Shown one piece after another: positions 29,085 through 38,167 of a stretch of DNA of 64,000 nucleotides. The notes under the pieces are model-generated. The model did not search any database. It was not told where the DNA came from and worked only from the letters and a program-made list of their open reading frames with translations. This DNA comes from Neptuniibacter pectenicola (GTDB lineage: Bacteria > Pseudomonadota > Gammaproteobacteria > Pseudomonadales > Balneatricaceae), in the NCBI RefSeq assembly GCF_001597735.1, contig NZ_LUTS01000002.1, positions 310,001 to 374,000 on the forward strand, written 5' to 3'. The position numbers were made by a program, and so were the translations under genes. Numbering within the stretch: the stretch's first letter is position 1; the number at the start of each line of letters is the position of its first letter.

Positions 29085-29447
29085 ATGCGTTTTCCAGAAC
29101 AGGTTGGTCAAGAGGTTGCTAAATACCGTAAAGCTAAAGTCGGTCCGCAAAATGCGATGCAGGCGCTTACGGGGATGAAGACTCAGCAATATAACCGATT
29201 AGAAAATGGAGCGGATGTTCGGCTGTCTACGTTATTTCGTGTGACTGATGCACTCGCGCTTGAAATGGCGCTGGTGCCGCGTGAACGTATGTTGTTGGTG
29301 GATATGATTCTTAATGCTTCTGAAGCGCAGTTGGAAACTTACAAGCAATTTATGCTTCAGCAACTTCAGTATGAAGAGGATCCATCGAAGGCTTTATCAT
29401 CAGCAACAGGGATAAATGCATTAATGCAGGAACTTTCAGATGAGTGA
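29085..29447 (+). CDS. hipB: HipB-like antitoxin / XRE-type regulator
   Basis: A 120-residue helix-turn-helix protein. Residues about 5-60 (GQEVAKYRKAKVGPQNAMQALTG) resemble XRE-type DNA-binding domains, with QQYNRLENGADVRLSTLFRV covering the recognition region. HipB-family proteins bind HipA, neutralise it and repress their own operon. The 3' end overlaps hipA by 8 bp, typical of toxin-antitoxin pairs. The longer C-terminal tail (about 60-120) exceeds that of E. coli HipB. Confidence 0.8.
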   Translation: MRFPEQVGQEVAKYRKAKVGPQNAMQALTGMKTQQYNRLENGADVRLSTLFRVTDALALEMALVPRERMLLVDMILNASEAQLETYKQFMLQQLQYEEDPSKALSSATGINALMQELSDE

Positions 29448-30690
29448 TAAACGCCATGAGAGGGTGGCTGCCCTGAGTATTACTCTCCATGGTACACAGG
29501 TGGGTATATTAGTTAATTACGCTAATTCAAAAAATATTTTGGTATTTTCGCCTGAATATCAAAAGCTTCATCCCGCCTTAAAGCCTACCGTTTCCCTTGC
29601 GCAGATAGATGCCCCGCAATTCCTTGCGAACCCTCAAATGACATCAATTCGCTTGCCCCCTGTTTTATCGAATTTATTACCTGAGGGAGCATTAAGAAAA
29701 TGGATGGCGCAGGGGGTTAAAGTCAGCGAGGAGAATGAGTTTCCTTTACTGGCGTATGTTGGGGACAATCTACCGGGTGCGATTAGGGCTATTCCACTGG
29801 CTGCGAATGAGGTGCCGCCTTGGGCGCTTATTAACCGTGAACAGGCTGAGCCTATACTGATGGATCTTGGCGCGAAGTCTCGTCAGTTTTCCCTTGCGGG
29901 TGTGCAGATCAAGTTTTCATCGGCCTATAAAGATGGGCGTTATAACATCGATTCGGGGATTGAGGGAGATAATTGGATTATAAAAACGCCCTCGACGATT
30001 CACCTCTATGTGCCCGAAAATGAATACACCGTTATGCGGTTGGCTGAATCTATAGGTGTCGATATACCAGAGATTAAATTAGTGGAGCTTGCTGATTTGA
30101 ACGGGCTACCGGATATAGCGCTCCCGAATGAATCATATGCTTACGCCATTAAACGCTTTGATCGAACGGAGCAGGGTAGAGTACATACGGAAGATTTTGC
30201 TCAGATTTTCAATCTATATGCCAGTGATAAATATGATAAGGCTAATTATGAAATGATAGGCCGAACGCTGTTTAAATATTCAAGTATTCGTGATGTTCAG
30301 CAGTTGGCGGTTCGTCTTTTAGCAAATATTTTATTGGGCAACGGTGATGCTCATACAAAGAATTTCTCTGTAATTTATCCAGACCATATTAACCCTGAAT
30401 TATCACCCGCATACGATATTGTGTTCACTGCTGCATACATTCAGGGAGAGCGAAAAACTGGGTTGAATATGGCGAAAGAGAAAGATTGGTATCGACTATC
30501 ACTCGCTCATTTTGAGGTGTGGTCGAATAGAATCGGTGTGCCGTGGATCGCGGTTAGAGAGTCGTTGTATCATGCAATCGAAAAATCTAAGCTATGGCCT
30601 GAGTTATTGACGGATTTACCTATGCATGAAGCTCATAAACAACGTTTGAGGGCGCATTGGGCGAAACTTCAGGATGATTTTAAGCTGTAA
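29440..30690 (+). CDS. hipA: HipA-family serine/threonine kinase toxin
   Basis: A 416-residue HipA protein. Kinase-fold motifs are SLAGVQIKFS (151-160, P-loop-like), the IIKTP lysine at 182, YAIKRFDR (235-242), the catalytic loop NGDAHTKN with aspartate 303 (301-308) and the metal-binding aspartate in AYDIV (326). HipA kinases phosphorylate targets such as glutamyl-tRNA synthetase and slow growth. All expected catalytic residues are present, so it is predicted to be active. It is coupled to hipB and lies next to a disturbed tRNA locus, a common site for such modules. Confidence 0.9.
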   Translation: MSDKRHERVAALSITLHGTQVGILVNYANSKNILVFSPEYQKLHPALKPTVSLAQIDAPQFLANPQMTSIRLPPVLSNLLPEGALRKWMAQGVKVSEENEFPLLAYVGDNLPGAIRAIPLAANEVPPWALINREQAEPILMDLGAKSRQFSLAGVQIKFSSAYKDGRYNIDSGIEGDNWIIKTPSTIHLYVPENEYTVMRLAESIGVDIPEIKLVELADLNGLPDIALPNESYAYAIKRFDRTEQGRVHTEDFAQIFNLYASDKYDKANYEMIGRTLFKYSSIRDVQQLAVRLLANILLGNGDAHTKNFSVIYPDHINPELSPAYDIVFTAAYIQGERKTGLNMAKEKDWYRLSLAHFEVWSNRIGVPWIAVRESLYHAIEKSKLWPELLTDLPMHEAHKQRLRAHWAKLQDDFKL

Positions 30691-30802: not shown

Positions 30803-31684
30803 TTAGTGCTCTTTTAGTGTGCGGACTTCGTCTGTCACTTTTGTTGCTAGGCTGCGAAGGTGTAGGTCCCGTTGTGGAAAGGGAATCTCTATTTTGTATT
30901 TTCTAAAGGCATCGTCAATCGCCCATAAGTAATCAGACATGATGGCGGTAGGGCGTTTGACTTGATCGGCTGTTACCCAAACGCCTAGAGTAAAATCTAA
31001 GCTGCTATCGCCGAAGCCGGTCATCCATACGATAGGTTCTTTTCCTTTGAGTGTTAGGGTGTAAGGGACGACCGCCGCGGCCTCTAACATCGCTTGTTTG
31101 ACTAGGTCTTTATCGCTGCCATAAGCAACGCCCACAGGGATACGAAAGCGGCGGATGGATTCTTCTAGGGTCCAGTTGATCACGTTACTGTTGGTGAGGT
31201 CGGCGTTGGGGATCAGGATATCAACATTATCATTTGTGCGGATGAGTGTTGCTCGCATGTGGATCTCCATCACTTCACCGGTGATCCCCGTGTCTAGCTC
31301 AATAAAGTCGCCGACTTTTAGGCTGCGTTCAAGCATGATCGCGACCCCAGAGACAAAGTTGTTGACGATTCCCTGTAGCCCTAACCCGATACCTATACCT
31401 AATGCACTGGCAATGAGTGCTAGTTTACTAATATCAATGCCTAACGAGGCAACTGCCATCAGTAAGCCCGCCACGATAATGACGTAATGGGCTAAGCGTA
31501 CAATGATGTACATCTGGTCGTGGGAGAGAACAGCTCTGGTTTTGGCGAGGTATTTGAACCACTTTTTAACAAAGGAGGCGATAACAAAGGTTAAGATAAT
31601 GATGGTGATACAGATCACCAGTTGATTGGCGAGTAACTGGTACTCGCCGACATTCAGCAGTGGATAATTCCAAAATTCAGTCAT
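30803..31684 (-). CDS. MscS-family mechanosensitive channel
   Basis: A 293-residue small-conductance mechanosensitive channel protein. It has three membrane helices; the third, pore-lining helix reads ALGIGIGLGLQGIVNNFVSG, followed by IMLERSLKVGDFIEL, the classic start of the cytoplasmic beta domain. IRTNDNVDILIPNADL continues the family pattern. It releases solutes during hypo-osmotic shock. It is the last gene of a leftward series. Confidence 0.93.
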   Translation of the reverse strand: MTEFWNYPLLNVGEYQLLANQLVICITIIILTFVIASFVKKWFKYLAKTRAVLSHDQMYIIVRLAHYVIIVAGLLMAVASLGIDISKLALIASALGIGIGLGLQGIVNNFVSGVAIMLERSLKVGDFIELDTGITGEVMEIHMRATLIRTNDNVDILIPNADLTNSNVINWTLEESIRRFRIPVGVAYGSDKDLVKQAMLEAAAVVPYTLTLKGKEPIVWMTGFGDSSLDFTLGVWVTADQVKRPTAIMSDYLWAIDDAFRKYKIEIPFPQRDLHLRSLATKVTDEVRTLKEH

Positions 31685-31720
31685 TTTTAATAGCCCTTGC
31701 TGATAACGGTTGAGCCGAAG

Positions 31721-32665
31721 TTAGATCCATTTTTTACGCTTAAAGAGTACGATCAGTGAAACGGATATGAAGAGCATACTGCTAAGTAGAATGTAGTAAG
31801 CGTTAGGGTGGTGTAATTCTGGGATATTTTCAAAGTTCATCCCGTATAACCCTGCTAAGAAGCTTAAGGGTACAAAAATAGCGGTAATAACGGTCAGCAC
31901 CCGCATAGACACATTCTGTTGATGTGAGCTTATGGAGATGTAGCCTTCGACCATATCAGAGCACATCTCATAATACAGGCAGGATAAGCTGTAGATCCGT
32001 TCAAAACGTTCATAAACATCGGTGAGGTAGTGTTCATGTTTTGACAGTTGAATAAAGGATTCACTGTTATCGTTTGCGTGGGAGCAAAACTCTGCAAACA
32101 TCTGCTGGTGGTAATTAAAGATACGTTTTAGGCGAAGCAGTTTTATACGGTAACCCGCTAATGCGGCCATATGTTTTTCGCCTTCACCGGCCAATAGCGC
32201 GTCTTCCTGTCGTCCTAAGACGTCTTCAAATTCCAGCATATTGGATAGGTAGGTATCGGATGAACGATGCATGATCTTTAGGGCCAGAAGCATCGGCTCT
32301 TCTACGTATTCTGGCAACTCATCAGCCAGCAGAATCTGACTAATCCCCATCGAATGCTCAGGGTGTACCGTTACAAGGTAGCGATCATTGATAAAAAAGC
32401 CGATCTGTTGGTGGTCGTATTCCAGTTCATTAATGACTTCGGAAATACCACGGTACAGGATAAAGGTCTGATGTTGGAAAAGCTCTATTTTGGGGGGGTG
32501 GCGTGTTCGCAGTACATCTTTAACCGCAAGCGCATTGCAGTTTAAAGAGGCGAGTAGCTCGCCCACCCGGTGTTGATCCATGTCGCTATATTGGATATCA
32601 ATCCAAATAAAGCTCGATGGGTCATCTAGCCATGCGGCGATCTGGTCATCATTACCGATGCTCAT
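31721..32665 (-). CDS. corA: CorA-family divalent metal transporter
   Basis: CorA/ZntB-type pentameric channel. The large cytoplasmic N-terminal domain is followed by two C-terminal helices, the first ending in the signature YGMNFENIP, with the periplasmic loop and KRKK tail after it. ATG 32665 is preferred because AAAAGG precedes it by seven bases; ATG 32701 would add 12 residues without a ribosome site. The substrate is probably magnesium, but ZntB-like zinc export cannot be excluded. Confidence 0.88.
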   Translation of the reverse strand: MSIGNDDQIAAWLDDPSSFIWIDIQYSDMDQHRVGELLASLNCNALAVKDVLRTRHPPKIELFQHQTFILYRGISEVINELEYDHQQIGFFINDRYLVTVHPEHSMGISQILLADELPEYVEEPMLLALKIMHRSSDTYLSNMLEFEDVLGRQEDALLAGEGEKHMAALAGYRIKLLRLKRIFNYHQQMFAEFCSHANDNSESFIQLSKHEHYLTDVYERFERIYSLSCLYYEMCSDMVEGYISISSHQQNVSMRVLTVITAIFVPLSFLAGLYGMNFENIPELHHPNAYYILLSSMLFISVSLIVLFKRKKWI

Positions 32666-32720
32666 CGCATGACCTTTTCTTTTCCAATATGTTGTAACCA
32701 TTTAACCGGCGATCCTGTGT

Positions 32721-33746
32721 TTATCGATTAAGTTCATCAGATAGATCTTCTTGGAACTCATCAACTTTAGCTTCAATCTCTTCAATGTCACCAAAACGAG
32801 CAATGTGGTAAAGCGCATCACCTTCGTTGACGAGAGGGAGGTTGGTTTTGCCAATAATAATTCCGCTATAGGGGGAGGTGATTTGTGCTTCTTTTTCCCC
32901 AAAGGGATCAGATACAACACCGAGTAGGGTGCCTTTGCTTACACGGCCGCCTAAGGGGATAAGTGCACGTAAAATACCGCTGTCTGAGGCTCTTACCCAT
33001 GAGCTAGAGCGGGCAACAACCGGTTCTTTATACGATTTGCTGGTGCCACGGGAGGGCGGAAGCATACCTAATGAACGCATGACATTCACAATCCCTTTAA
33101 CACCGGCTCTAATCGCCATCTCGTCAAAACGTAGTGCTTCACCTGCCTCATATAAAAGCATAGGTATGCCATGTTCGGCGGCGGCTTCCCTAAGTGACCC
33201 GTCCCGTAGGTTAGAGGAGATGATCACTGGAACATTAAAGGCCCGTGCGAGTCGCTCGGTCTCCTCATCATCCAGGTTGGCACGAATTTGAGGCAGGTTT
33301 GTACGATGTACTGCGCCCGTATGAAGGTCGATGCCGTGGGTACTTTGACAGACAATCTCTTCCATAAAAAGGTGCGCAATACGTGCAGCCAGTGAGCCTT
33401 TTTCGCTACCGGGAAAGGAGCGGTTGAGGTCGCGGCGGTCGGGTAGGTAACGGGAGTGGCTAAGTAAGCCATGTACGTTAACGATAGGCACTGCGATCAA
33501 TGTACCTTTAAGACGCTTGAGCGCCGGCAACGTTAATACACGCCGAATAATCTCAACGCCATTAATCTCATCCCCATGAATAGCGGCACTGAGAAACAGC
33601 CTAGGTCCACCCCGTTTGCCGTTGACCACGTGAACGGGGATTGTCATGGGTGTATGGGTATATAGCCGCCCGGCAGGCAGTTCAATCGTTGTTCGCGTGC
33701 CGGGGGCGACATGTGTTCCGTTAATTGTGAATGTGGTATCTGCCAT
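32721..33746 (-). CDS. Succinylglutamate desuccinylase/aspartoacylase-family metallohydrolase
   Basis: Zinc-dependent M14-type hydrolase, 341 residues. Zinc ligands are visible in AAIHGDEINGVE (His57, Glu60) and GIDLHTGAVH (His142), with DLNRSFPG (106-113) for substrate binding. The C-terminal part (about 240-330) resembles the barrel-sandwich domain of this subfamily (LLGVVSDPFGEKEAQITSP). It is 5 bp downstream of the RimK-like ligase gene and so is likely to hydrolyse an amide or peptide bond related to what that ligase makes; the precise substrate is unknown. Confidence 0.85.
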   Translation of the reverse strand: MADTTFTINGTHVAPGTRTTIELPAGRLYTHTPMTIPVHVVNGKRGGPRLFLSAAIHGDEINGVEIIRRVLTLPALKRLKGTLIAVPIVNVHGLLSHSRYLPDRRDLNRSFPGSEKGSLAARIAHLFMEEIVCQSTHGIDLHTGAVHRTNLPQIRANLDDEETERLARAFNVPVIISSNLRDGSLREAAAEHGIPMLLYEAGEALRFDEMAIRAGVKGIVNVMRSLGMLPPSRGTSKSYKEPVVARSSSWVRASDSGILRALIPLGGRVSKGTLLGVVSDPFGEKEAQITSPYSGIIIGKTNLPLVNEGDALYHIARFGDIEEIEAKVDEFQEDLSDELNR

Positions 33747-33751
33747 AGGGA

Positions 33752-34657
33752 TTAACCTTTACCCCGTGTTTTTGTACGGTGCGGCTTAGCATTTTTTTCA
33801 ATAAATTCGATGATCATGCCAGCTATATCTTTGCCGGTTGCCGCTTCAATACCTTCTAGTCCAGGTGATGAGTTAACTTCCATCACTAAAGGCCCGCGCT
33901 CAGAGCGTAATAGATCAACCCCTGCCACATTAAGCCCCATGATTTTGGCAGCATTGACTGCGGTGGCACGTTCAGCCGGTGATATTCTAATCAGTGAGGC
34001 ACTACCACCACGGTGGAGGTTAGAACGAAATTCACCTTCCATCGCTTGGCGTTTCATGGCTGCAACAACTTTATCGCCAATCACTAAACAGCGAATATCG
34101 GCACCGCCCGCTTCTTTAATATATTCCTGTACCATGATGTTAACTTTTAAACCCATAAACGCTTCTAATACACTTTCAGCCGCTTTTTGGGTTTCGGCTA
34201 ATACAACCCCAATACCTTGGGTACCTTCAAGCAATTTGATAACAAGGGGCGCGCCGCCCACCATTTTAATCAAATCGCCGATATCATCAGGGTTGTTGGC
34301 AAAGCCGGTGAAGGGCATGCCTACGCCTTTGCGTGAGAGTAGCTGCATGGTGCGAAGCTTATCTCTCGAGCGTGAGATTGCGACCGATTCGTTTAACGGG
34401 TAAGACCCCATCATTTCAAACTGACGTAAAACCGCCGTACCATAAAAGGTGATGGAGGCACCAATACGGGGGATGACCGCATCAAAATTAGGCAGTGGCT
34501 CACCTTTAAAGTGAGCTTGTGGTTTATTGGATGCAATATCCATATAGGTTCTTAATGCATCAACTACCATCGGTGTGTGGCCGCGTTGCTCGCAGGCTTC
34601 AACTAAGCGGCGAGTCGAGTATAGCTTTCGGTTACGTGAAAGGATGGCGATATTCAT
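33752..34657 (-). CDS. rimK: RimK-like ATP-grasp ligase
   Basis: ATP-grasp carboxylate-amine ligase of 301 residues, the usual RimK length. It has an N-terminal pre-ATP-grasp domain ([18 protein letters not shown]), ATP-binding segments ([36 protein letters not shown]) and the magnesium-binding [12 protein letters not shown] near 265. RimK adds glutamates to the C terminus of ribosomal protein S6. It overlaps the protease gene upstream by 4 bases and is followed by the aspartoacylase-like gene, a recurrent trio. Confidence 0.9.
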
Positions 34658-35127
34658 TTTTCGGCCTTTTGGGGTGAGTTATCTATAATGTCGTCAGGCC
34701 CACCTAATAAAAATGTTGCGGCAGGGTCAACGATGAGTCGTCCGTCAATTGCAGAGTGACCTAGGAGTAAGCGGAACGTCATGTCATCCATATTGGTGAT
34801 GACAAGCTCGACAGGCCATTGTTGTTGCCCCATCTGTATGGTTGTGCGGATTAAGTAATCATTATCCGGATCGCCGTGTTTATTTGTACCTTCATATTTA
34901 CCAAGGATCGGCGCTTCGCACATGATGGCGTCGGAGTGATCGTTTTGTTTTGGATGAATGCAAAAGCGAACATACACTTGCTCATCTCGCTCAAACTCTT
35001 CTGTCATAAAGGCGTGTAGAGTCGATGTTTGTCTGCCGGAATCTATTTTTGTTTGTAACGGTGGTAAGCCAAGTTCGGGCAGTAGGGCCCATTCTTGCCA
35101 ACCTGTTGCAATGCGTTCTTTACCCAT
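34654..35127 (-). CDS. rimB: RimB-like retropepsin-type aspartic protease
   Basis: A 157-residue protein often labelled ATP-dependent zinc protease. The motif [13 protein letters not shown] (27-39) has the D-S/T-G core of retropepsins at 29-31. In Pseudomonas, RimB works with RimK to edit polyglutamate tails on S6. Most relatives have D-T-G-A; here the residue after the glycine is arginine, a noticeable deviation. It is the first gene of the trio and overlaps rimK by 4 bp. Confidence 0.82.
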
Positions 35128-35497
35128 AGTGCATACCTATTAATCGATTAACCTAATTTTCCGTTGGCGTGCTAGTAAAGTAAAAATGCAGAAGAGTTTA
35201 GGCTATTTTTACATCTCTTCTTTTACCAAGGAACATAGGGCATTGCACCACATTTCAGTGCGCTCCCCCCATTTAGTTCTGTTTGGCCTTTGGCTGGGGT
35301 TAAACGGTGTGTAGACGCCGAAAAAAAGCCCTATGTTAACTTTAGGTAGGGATCCCTATTTTGTCGACTAATCGGGGTGGCTCTGCACTGTTTATTGCAG
35401 ATAACAGCCTAATTATATGCGCGATCTAGTTGTGTTCGCTATACTTAACAGATGTCTCTTTACTGCCAGTGTGCTTATGTTGCGGTTGTTTGTTTTT
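35128..35497. other. Divergent intergenic region
   Basis: About 370 bases between rimB (leftward) and the solute-binding protein gene (rightward). Nothing was recognised beyond AT-rich stretches suited to promoters. The open frame upstream of 35498 is taken as untranslated because the signal peptide begins at 35498. Confidence 0.4.
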
Positions 35498-36262
35498 ATG
35501 CGTTATTTATTACGTTGCCTCTGTTTATGGTGCGTTATGTTTGTGCCTGCGTCTTTTGCCGAGCATATTTCAATTGCGGCCGATCGTTGGTGTCCTTTTA
35601 ACTGTGAAGCGGGGTCGGAACTGCCGGGGTTTATGGTAGAAGTGGCCGAGCGGGTGTTTTCTAAACATGGTTATGAGGTTGAATATATTGAGATGAACTG
35701 GTCTCGGGCTATTCAAGAAGCACGTAAGGGTGAAGTTAACGCTATTATGGGGGGCTTTAAGAGTGATGCTCCCGACTTTGTTTATCCTAAAGAGGAGCTT
35801 GCTGTTTTAGAGAATAGGTTCTTTGTGCGTAAAGAGAGCGATTGGGTCTATAAAGGAATCGATTCCCTTAAAACCGTACAGCTAGGTGCCATTCTTGGGT
35901 ATGACTATGGCAATGAGTTAAGGGCATATATTCAAGAAAGCGGTGCGGAAGAGGTGACTATACTTAACGGTGATTATCACCCCCTCTCCCATGGTATTAA
36001 ACTGCTCAAGCGGCATCGTATTGATGTGCTGATCGAAACAGGCCCCGTGTTTTGGTATAACGCTAAAAAGCTTGGATTAGCGGATGAATTTAAGGTGGTT
36101 GGCCTCACCAAAAAAGCCGCCCCCGCGTATATCGCTTTTTCTCCTGCGCTTGAGGATTCTTCGCGCTATGCCCAGATACTTTCTGAAGGGATAAGAGGAT
36201 TAAGAGCCTCGGGAGAGCTGGCGAGTATCTTAGCTAAATATGGTTTAGAGGACTGGAAATAA
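35498..36262 (+). CDS. Periplasmic solute-binding protein, family 3
   Basis: Secreted protein of 254 residues. ATG 35498 starts a good signal peptide (MRYLLRCLCLWCVMFVPASF, cut near FAEH). Upstream in-frame starts to 35417 would bury it. The mature protein has the bilobal SBP_bac_3 pattern: DRWCPFNCEAGSELPGFMVE, then GFKSDAPDFVYP, GAILGYDYGNELRAYI and DVLIETGP. Similar stand-alone proteins bind amino acids or serve as sensors; no permease genes are adjacent, so the partner is unknown. Confidence 0.82.
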   Translation: MRYLLRCLCLWCVMFVPASFAEHISIAADRWCPFNCEAGSELPGFMVEVAERVFSKHGYEVEYIEMNWSRAIQEARKGEVNAIMGGFKSDAPDFVYPKEELAVLENRFFVRKESDWVYKGIDSLKTVQLGAILGYDYGNELRAYIQESGAEEVTILNGDYHPLSHGIKLLKRHRIDVLIETGPVFWYNAKKLGLADEFKVVGLTKKAAPAYIAFSPALEDSSRYAQILSEGIRGLRASGELASILAKYGLEDWK

Positions 36263-36287
36263 CCACCGGTTTCTAAATCACTAAAGC

Positions 36288-36308
36288 TAAAGGGTAAAGG
36301 GTAAAGGG
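36288..36308 (+). repeat. Short tandem repeat, TAAAGGG x3
   Basis: Three exact copies of TAAAGGG, preceded by a partial copy, lie between convergent genes. It is a simple repeat that could vary in copy number; no role is evident. Confidence 0.75.
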
Positions 36309-36337
36309 TAAATGCTTTTGAGTGGTTTAATCGGTTA

Positions 36338-38167
36338 TTACTCCTCACCTAAAAATCCCCCCGTTTGATGGGCCCATAACTGAGCGTAGATGCCTTTTTT
36401 CTGGATGAGCGCCTGATGGGTTCCCTGTTCCACTATTTCACCTTTATCAAGTACAACCAGCCGATCCAAGGCTGCAATTGTGGAAAGGCGGTGGGCAATC
36501 GCAATAACGGTTTTGTTCTCCATTAAACTATATAAGCTTGCTTGGATAGCGGCTTCCACCTCTGAATCTAATGCTGAGGTGGCTTCATCCAAAATAAGGA
36601 TCGGCGCATCCTTGAGTAATACACGGGCTATGGCGACACGCTGACGTTGCCCGCCGGACAGTTTAACGCCTCGTTCACCCACATGGGCATCATAGCCTTT
36701 ACGACCGGCTTGGTCGGTTAAGCCTAAAATAAATTCATGGGCTTGGGCTTTTTTCGCCGCACTAATCATCTCCTCTTCGGTTGCATCAGGGCGGCCGTAT
36801 AATAGATTTTCACGTACTGAACGGTGGAGTAAGGCGGTATCTTGGGTCACCATACCAATATGGGCACGAAGGGAATCTTGGGTTGTTTCGCGGATATCTT
36901 GTCCATCTATTTTTACTGCGCCACGCTCTACATCAAAAAAGCGCATAAGTAGGTTAACGATGGTGGATTTTCCTGCGCCAGAGCGGCCGACGAGGCCTAT
37001 TTTTTCACCCGGTTTGATGGATAGGTTCAGCTGCTTAATGACGGTTTTCTCTTCGCCATAGTTAAAACCAACCTCCTCAAACTGGATCGCACCTTTTGAC
37101 ACAGTAATCGGTTTGGCGCTGGGATTATCTTGAATCTGGAGCGGTTTTGATAGGGTTTCCATACCATCAGCAACGGTGCCAATATTCTCAAACAGAGCGC
37201 TAACCTCCCACATGATCCAGTGGGCCATACCGTTGAGGCGTAAGGCTAAGGCAATAGAGATAGCGATGGCGCCTACCGAAACCGCATTCTCAAGCCAAAG
37301 CCAGATGGACAAAGTGGCGACGGAGAAGGAGAGCAGGTAGTTGATGCACTGCACGCTTATATTTAAGCCGGTGCCAAGGCGCATCTGTTTGTGTACGGTT
37401 TCTAAAAAGGTATCCATACCTTCTTTTGCATACTCCGCTTCACGTTGGGTATGTGAGAACAGCTTGATCGTTGCAATATTGGCGTAGGAATCAACAATCC
37501 GTCCAGTCATGGTTGAACGGGCATTGGCTTGTTCGGTGGCGATTTTTTTAAGGCGAGGGACAAAGTAAATTTGAATCCCTATATAAAACCCTAACCAGAC
37601 CGCCATCGGTAAGGTGAGTCGCCAATCGGATTGAGCAACTAACACCAGCATGGCAAAGAAGTAGACGACAACGAACATCATGACATCGAGCAGTTTCATG
37701 ACGGCTTCACGCACAGAGAGTGCGGTTTGCATGACTTTGGTTGAGATTCGCCCGGCAAAATCATCGGCATAAAAAGAAACGCTTTGCTTTAAAAGATAGC
37801 GATGGGCTAGCCAGCGTATAGACATGGGGTAATTACCCAATAAGGTTTGGTGGGTAATTAATGAGTGGAGTAAGCCAGCAATGGGGAGGGCAACCAGTGG
37901 CACTAAACTCATTAGGAGTAGTTGGTCGGCTTCTTGGGCTAGAAAAGTTGCACGATCTTTAGTGGATAACCAATCCACAAGCTGCCCCATAAAGCCAAAC
38001 AGGGTGACTTCTAATATAGCAACGGTGGCCGTGAGTAGGGACATAAATAACAGCGGCCATTCTGCCCCCTTTGTGTAGTGGCGACAAAATGCATAAAGCC
38101 CTTTAGGTGGCTGACGAGGTTCGGCAGGGGGAAAAGCGGGAATAAGCTTTTCAAAAAATGAAAACAT
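36338..38167 (-). CDS. MsbA-type ABC transporter, permease-ATPase fusion
   Basis: Half-transporter of 609 residues. Residues about 30-330 form six membrane helices, and the C-terminal nucleotide-binding domain has Walker A GLVGRSGAGKSTI, signature LSGGQRQRVAIARVL, Walker B ILILDEATSALD and the H-loop IAIAHRLSTIA. It should work as a homodimer exporting a lipid, peptide or drug. It differs from lipid-A MsbA by length and context, and the substrate is not known. It is a lone leftward gene. Confidence 0.92.
   Translation of the reverse strand: MFSFFEKLIPAFPPAEPRQPPKGLYAFCRHYTKGAEWPLLFMSLLTATVAILEVTLFGFMGQLVDWLSTKDRATFLAQEADQLLLMSLVPLVALPIAGLLHSLITHQTLLGNYPMSIRWLAHRYLLKQSVSFYADDFAGRISTKVMQTALSVREAVMKLLDVMMFVVVYFFAMLVLVAQSDWRLTLPMAVWLGFYIGIQIYFVPRLKKIATEQANARSTMTGRIVDSYANIATIKLFSHTQREAEYAKEGMDTFLETVHKQMRLGTGLNISVQCINYLLSFSVATLSIWLWLENAVSVGAIAISIALALRLNGMAHWIMWEVSALFENIGTVADGMETLSKPLQIQDNPSAKPITVSKGAIQFEEVGFNYGEEKTVIKQLNLSIKPGEKIGLVGRSGAGKSTIVNLLMRFFDVERGAVKIDGQDIRETTQDSLRAHIGMVTQDTALLHRSVRENLLYGRPDATEEEMISAAKKAQAHEFILGLTDQAGRKGYDAHVGERGVKLSGGQRQRVAIARVLLKDAPILILDEATSALDSEVEAAIQASLYSLMENKTVIAIAHRLSTIAALDRLVVLDKGEIVEQGTHQALIQKKGIYAQLWAHQTGGFLGEE

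Follow-up and report, generated by a model that had tools for sequence, protein, structure and literature searches.

A RimK-linked AstE-type hydrolase and a divergent RimB in one gene trio: a possible eraser of glutamate tags

Why should the gene of an AstE/aspartoacylase-type hydrolase be packed against those of the glutamate ligase RimK and the retropepsin-like protease RimB, and what does this RimB do, given that it differs from its family at otherwise invariant positions? Both questions are raised by a gene trio (Table 1) in the 64,000-nucleotide stretch of Neptuniibacter pectenicola DNA analysed here (the window). As described in PMC11957791, RimK adds α-linked glutamates to the S6 C terminus or makes free poly-Glu. 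RimB of Pseudomonas, a retropepsin-like endopeptidase, shortens the tail and also activates RimK, and the two proteins can occur fused as RimBK. RimB leaves 4–5 glutamates on S6, and S6 tails are lost independently of RimB in stationary phase; the authors postulate a second protease that would "reset" S6 tagged by RimK, and assign no enzyme to this step (PMC7343187).

Layout and surroundings of the trio

The preliminary description had called the trio tightly packed, and it is: the RimB and RimK ORFs overlap by 4 bp (ATGA), a gap of 5 bp separates RimK from AstE, and the proteins match the Pfam models of the three families.

Table 1. The trio (minus-strand ORFs spanning window positions 32721–35127), the RimB active site and the gene that follows
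Feature	Position	Strand	Length	Basis or remark
RimB-family retropepsin-like protein, divergent (A32R, R90D, R113M, R124H)	34654..35127	(-)	157 aa	PF05618 match
RimK, alpha-L-glutamate ligase	33752..34657	(-)	301 aa	NF007764 match
AstE/aspartoacylase-type zinc hydrolase, RimK-linked group	32721..33746	(-)	341 aa	PF24827 match
RimB active-site residues D29-S30-G31-R32-Q33	35029..35043	(-)		translation
CorA-type transporter gene	31721..32701	(-)		PF01544; 19 bp downstream of trio

CorA-type and MscS-type genes follow downstream on the same strand (30803–32701). By synteny, CorA lies directly 3′ of the trio in two congeners, but this placement is not seen in the two closest genomes from other genera; it is probably a neighbour rather than a member of the module. 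The EAL domain characteristic of rimA is absent from the seven proteins scanned with Pfam (the trio and four neighbours, 30803 to 38167); in Pseudomonas, too, some of the operons have no rimA. Promoter-like sites show no excess (8, against a shuffle mean of 10.0), and terminator-like sites number 12, against 5.4 in shuffles; neither count is used as evidence here. Two overlapping plus-strand ORFs at 29085–30690 presumably encode a HipB-HipA-like toxin-antitoxin pair.

The ligase is conventional. It matches PF08443 at 226.9 bits (cut-off 21) and passes the curated S6-glutamate-ligase equivalog NF007764 at 476.4 bits (cut-off 331). Its nearest solved relatives are 7qyr and 7qys, which we take to be Pseudomonas RimK structures, and it is 76–78% identical to RimK of 15 genomes that we label Pseudomonas-like because two RimK proteins of the group match 7qyr and 7qys best.

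The S6 of the same genome ends in AAE. We sought S6 in 30 relatives and found it in 28; with the host genome this gave 29 loci, of which 27 were readable, the start motif being absent from the other two. Across these 27, the S6 C terminus speaks neither for nor against S6 as the target of RimK, or as one target among several, as the preliminary description had suggested: S6 ends in Glu in 6/6 genomes read that have no RimK match (at E 1e-60), and it does not do so in 5 of the 21 RimK-bearing genomes read. At two loci, L103 (genome G093) and L078 (genome G130), S6 ends in Val and Ser, respectively, and both genomes carry the full RimB-RimK-AstE trio, a hint that S6 is perhaps not the RimK target there.

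The RimK-linked hydrolase

The third protein belongs to the superfamily PF24827 (AstE_AspA_cat; 138.7 bits, cut-off 25). It scores well below the cut-offs of the functional models for DoeB (TIGR02994; 79.6 bits, cut-off 402.7), aspartoacylase (NF002601; 25.4 bits, cut-off 180) and succinylglutamate desuccinylase (NF003706; 20.5 bits, cut-off 170). The earlier label "zinc amidohydrolase" was loosely worded; the Pfam match and the fold instead support an AstE/aspartoacylase-type metallohydrolase.

Residues H57, E60, R99, N108-R109, H142 and E200 are invariant in 35/35 aligned AstE-type sequences. From the roles of their counterparts in the family, we take H57, E60, H142, N108-R109 and E200 to be putative zinc-binding or catalytic positions. 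In this fold the Asn-Arg pair presumably grips the departing residue by its free carboxylate, which would give the polarity needed for removing C-terminal residues added by RimK. Three further arginines, R148, R155 and R186, show little or no variation (Lys replaces R148 in 3 of the top 80 named loci, taken from at least 577 relatives) and are absent from DoeB; they would fit an acidic substrate. They do not form a RimK-specific signature, being present in 10/10 AstE-family proteins unlinked to RimK. R181 and Y199 separate the linked from the unlinked proteins better, and R206 does so in part (Arg in 5/10 unlinked). A second AstE-type group (loci L192–L201), 36–45% identical to the window protein, lies away from RimK and has the same extra arginines.

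The predicted structure (pLDDT 90.7) is closest to DoeB and 3cdx (Z 34–35), followed by the cyanophycin dipeptidase CphZ (Z 28.3 over 298 residues, 14–15% identity) and true succinylglutamate desuccinylases (Z 18–19). The fold also resembles that of M14 carboxypeptidases, and the model aligns with the deglutamylase CCP5 at Z ∼16 over 213 residues and 14–16% identity, a likeness of fold that shows no function. The neighbours DoeB, CphZ and CCP5 act on acylated or dipeptide substrates.

Linkage ties this protein to RimK. The preliminary description had proposed checking co-occurrence of the three families, and the check came out clearly in favour of an association. Among 144 related genomes, the host included, 75 AstE matches were divided at ∼326 bits into 54 trio-type and 21 weaker ones. 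The 54 trio-type copies lie in 53 of the genomes; RimK or a fused RimBK is present in 53/53 of these, and 45/54 copies adjoin RimK on the same strand. Gene orders around the 54 copies, counting RimB-type matches down to ∼E 9e-12 and excluding weaker RloA-like rows, are RimB-RimK-AstE (28, the window included), RimK-AstE (11), RimK-AstE-RimB (6) and AstE alone (9); an order that recurs in 28 of 54 cases argues that the arrangement in the window is not due to chance. Conversely, 33 of the 86 RimK-bearing relatives have no trio-type AstE, and 58 genomes have neither gene (Fisher p 7e-17 for co-occurrence, uncorrected for kinship). For none of the 21 weaker AstE-family matches is there a same-strand RimK at a distance of 3 kb or less.

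The association extends well beyond close relatives. With the AstE alignment alone as query, the top 80 named loci, out of at least 577 relatives, include 59 in which RimK lies on the same strand at most 400 bp away and 6 in which it lies elsewhere in the flanks; in the other 15 the flanking DNA available shows no RimK, some of these contigs being short. Carriers of RimK-adjacent AstE within these best 80 include Gamma- and Alphaproteobacteria, Nitrospirota, Desulfobacterales, Mariprofundus and relatives of Arcobacter, as well as a planctomycete and the archaeon Methanolobus bombayensis. In a phylum-wide sample, the AstE search alone gave matches at E 1e-60 in 94 of 398 genomes. On these counts the RimK-AstE pair is the steadiest element of the module, while RimB may precede it, follow it or be supplied from elsewhere, and the linkage evidence that the trio forms a coherent module is strong.

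RimB-RimK is an already known system; the AstE-type third gene is an overlooked and widespread partner. We found no description of the RimK-AstE pairing in the literature searched, whose coverage leaves out most subscription journals. A 2009 survey by Iyer and colleagues, devoted to amidoligases of the ATP-grasp type, may already have noted such neighbourhoods. The words "aspartoacylase" and "desuccinylase" do not occur in the main text of PMC11957791, PMC10092738, PMC7343187 or PMC4741518.

It is possible, if on the unlikely side, that the AstE-type protein deacylates small molecules, as DoeB, AstE and aspartoacylase do, rather than being a protein deglutamylase, either supplying free glutamate for RimK or degrading an N-acyl-amino-acid or N-acyl-glutamate that RimK makes. 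Its best sequence and fold matches are indeed DoeB and proteins of the AstE/aspartoacylase type, the nine solitary copies lie away from RimK, and in mammals the NAAG synthetases, presumably RimK-family ligases, act on the same small metabolites as aspartoacylase (PMC5756261). However, all three functional models that would name such an enzyme score far under their cut-offs, the window RimK is of the S6-ligase type, and the superfamily also holds dipeptidases, CphZ among them.

Could a hydrolase that erases glutamate tags be the postulated reset protease? The trio-type gene is absent from 15/15 RimK-bearing Pseudomonas-like genomes, where the best match (4.6e-20, 28% identity) occurs in a single genome. 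We therefore reject the idea that the AstE-type protein performs the reset in P. fluorescens itself, and reset activity in that group needs another enzyme. Outside the Pseudomonas-like genomes the AstE-type protein is a candidate for this role.

A RimB with altered polyglutamate-binding positions

Family membership of the window RimB is clear from PF05618 (85.7 bits, cut-off 27). Against the RimB equivalog model NF052261, for which the window protein alone was scored, it reaches 102.7 bits and stays under the cut-off of 200. Its retropepsin-like fold matches RloA (9g58; Foldseek E 5.9e-11), 2pma and RloA2 (9g59), and the catalytic Asp of the D-[ST]-G motif (D29-S30-G31) is present, as is K27. 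The preliminary description had singled out D-S-G-R in place of the usual D-T-G-A. The reading is correct (D29-S-G-R-Q), and its unusual element is Arg32, not Ser30. Among 120 other distinct RimB-type sequences (matches that score 60 bits or more and extend over >110 residues of the query; 13 of the sequences are RimK fusions), 17 have Ser after the catalytic Asp, an ordinary variant, whereas position 32 is Ala in 120/120.

Two further positions, R90 and R113, are invariant in 120/120 of these sequences and are Asp and Met in the window RimB. The changes A32R, R90D and R113M are common to the three genomes, out of 11 of the genus searched, that carry a trio in RimB-RimK-AstE order. By alignment and by the 23-residue spacing in the solved structure 9g59, a mapping made by hand, R90 and R113 correspond to R114 and R137 of RloA. 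The paralogue RloA grips polyglutamate through R114 and R137, among other basic residues, and alanine mutants of these two show the strongest loss of cleavage and do not rescue growth in vivo (PMC12239564). Trimming by the window RimB is doubtful because it has lost the two arginines whose RloA equivalents are needed for polyglutamate cleavage. A fourth change, R124H, weighs less. R124 was invariant in an earlier set and had been considered a polyglutamate-binding residue; it is Ser or Ala in 13/120 sequences, every one Pseudomonas-like, and so looks dispensable.

These substitutions argue strongly that the window RimB would no longer handle polyglutamate in the normal way, a conclusion weakened in that Arg32 could partly replace the lost arginines. 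Since the catalytic Asp and the fold are kept and the residues that grip polyglutamate are gone, we propose that the protein has probably been re-aimed to another target or turned into a regulator of RimK.

The history of the gene bears on this proposal. In trees of 28 loci, with six loci of a different RimB subgroup excluded, the stem branch measures 1.81 substitutions per site for RimB, 0.087 for RimK and 0.119 for AstE; the RimB stem is 4.5× the length expected from the RimK tree and 8.4× that expected from the AstE tree. Within the genus, RimB is 81–82% identical at 98% RimK identity, where three comparable pairs average 86%, and on these figures its rate is near normal. RimB dN/dS is ∼0.04 with synonymous sites saturated; the closest pair, in which they are not saturated, gives 0.11 (3 against 7 changes). 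As far as these comparisons indicate, the gene is under purifying selection. The pattern suggests an episode of rapid change that later gave way to constraint, rather than decay. Elsewhere in the sample, the RimB matches of genomes G022 and G002 contain a stop codon, which in G022 looks like the natural gene end overrun by the alignment.

The host genome also encodes, on another contig (L001:487-1980), a fused RimBK of 497 aa that keeps D-S-G-A-K and both key arginines; the gene beside it is presumably a LysR-like regulator. A fused RimBK is present in all three genomes with the divergent RimB. Redundancy with RimBK is not a sufficient cause of the divergence: genomes G081 and G122 combine a fused RimBK with a trio in RimB-RimK-AstE order, yet their RimB is normal.

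Three other accounts of the divergent RimB can be weighed against this record. The long branch might reflect replacement of the gene from an unsampled lineage rather than accelerated change in place, which we regard as rather unlikely: the divergent RimB does group apart from the relatives that its RimK and AstE join, but long branches are placed badly and the gene order has been kept. Replacement is compatible with the other readings and, if it happened, would leave the functional inference on RimB unchanged. It is unlikely that the protein is still an ordinary polyglutamate protease in which Arg32 and the other changes compensate for the lost arginines. The retention of D29, G31, K27 and the retropepsin fold, the low dN/dS and the apparent dispensability of R124 would suit that account; the strict invariance of R90 and R113 elsewhere, the loss of cleavage in the RloA alanine mutants and the disproportionate stem speak against it. 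Decay of a gene made redundant by RimBK is very unlikely, for although RimBK accompanies every divergent RimB, dN/dS is low, the frame is intact, identical changes are fixed in three genomes, and G081 and G122 keep a normal RimB beside RimBK.

A proposed module and its known counterparts

Taken together, the data favour, at a probability of about 0.4, a RimK-centred poly-α-glutamylation module in which the AstE-type protein removes glutamate and RimB, in this genus, acts as a regulator or as a re-specified cutter. RimK would write α-linked glutamates onto a protein C terminus (S6, perhaps others) or as free poly-Glu. The AstE-type metallohydrolase would work from the C-terminal end, taking glutamates off singly or converting short Glu oligomers to glutamate; there are good grounds for supposing that it would erase glutamate tags. 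A normal RimB, as known in Pseudomonas, would serve as endo-cutter and RimK activator, whereas in this genus RimB may regulate RimK or cut a different sequence, and the separate RimBK with its normal residues could do the ordinary polyglutamate cutting. A narrower version, in which the RimK-linked AstE is the missing eraser, a C-terminal exo-deglutamylase, and RimB was re-aimed or became a regulator after RimBK took over cutting, is more speculative still. The preliminary description had envisaged a module that adds, trims and removes amino-acid tags. Such a module fits the type of RimK, the literature on RimB and the conserved linkage of AstE to RimK, with the AstE-type protein as a putative remover; the trimming step is in doubt here, with R90 and R113 lost.

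If this narrower version is right, RimB-RimK-AstE would constitute a complete cycle of writing, trimming and erasing that parallels TTLL and CCP in bacteria: the AstE-type exo-deglutamylase would strip RimK-tagged proteins back to their unmodified form and recycle the oligomers. Control of S6 by RimK and RimB was worked out in Pseudomonas, whose relatives in our sample are without the third gene; a conserved neighbour of RimK whose fold is suitable opens the reset question to testing in the many bacteria, and at least one archaeon, that carry it. The divergent RimB, in turn, offers a natural experiment on the residues that set specificity in bacterial retropepsins.

The closest known systems are the Pseudomonas rimABK and rimBK operons, which likewise encode a RimB-family protease together with RimK; the window differs in having no rimA, an added AstE-type gene and changed RimB residues. 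The RimBK hybrid protein described in PMC11957791 joins the same two domains, but 0/23 fused copies in the 144 genomes adjoin AstE. RloA-RloB-RloC also places a retropepsin-like protease, with a fold matching that of the window RimB, beside an ATP-grasp protein. In contrast to the trio, this system has an exported protease (RloA) and an inactive transglutaminase (RloB), and the word "aspartoacylase" is absent from the main text of that report (PMC12239564).

The cyanophycin cycle follows the same logic, with a polymer-making ATP-grasp ligase (CphA), a first cutter (CphB) and an AstE-family dipeptidase (CphZ), as set out in PMC12661447 and PMC10206079; the polymer and the cutter are different, however, and the 14–15% identity to CphZ is low. 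A ligase and a hydrolase acting on linked substrates are also found in mammals. There, RIMKLA and RIMKLB are, we assume, RimK-family ligases, and aspartoacylase is presumably kin to the aspartoacylase-family hydrolase considered here. The mouse NAAG synthetases Rimkla and Rimklb have been studied together with aspartoacylase in N-acetylaspartate metabolism (PMC5756261). Unlike in the trio, the substrates are small brain metabolites and the genes are unlinked, and the window protein falls short of the aspartoacylase model. Eukaryotic TTLL and CCP, finally, pair a glutamate-ligase writer with an M14-fold eraser, and CCP5 (Z 16) shares with the window AstE-type protein only its fold, at 14–16% identity.
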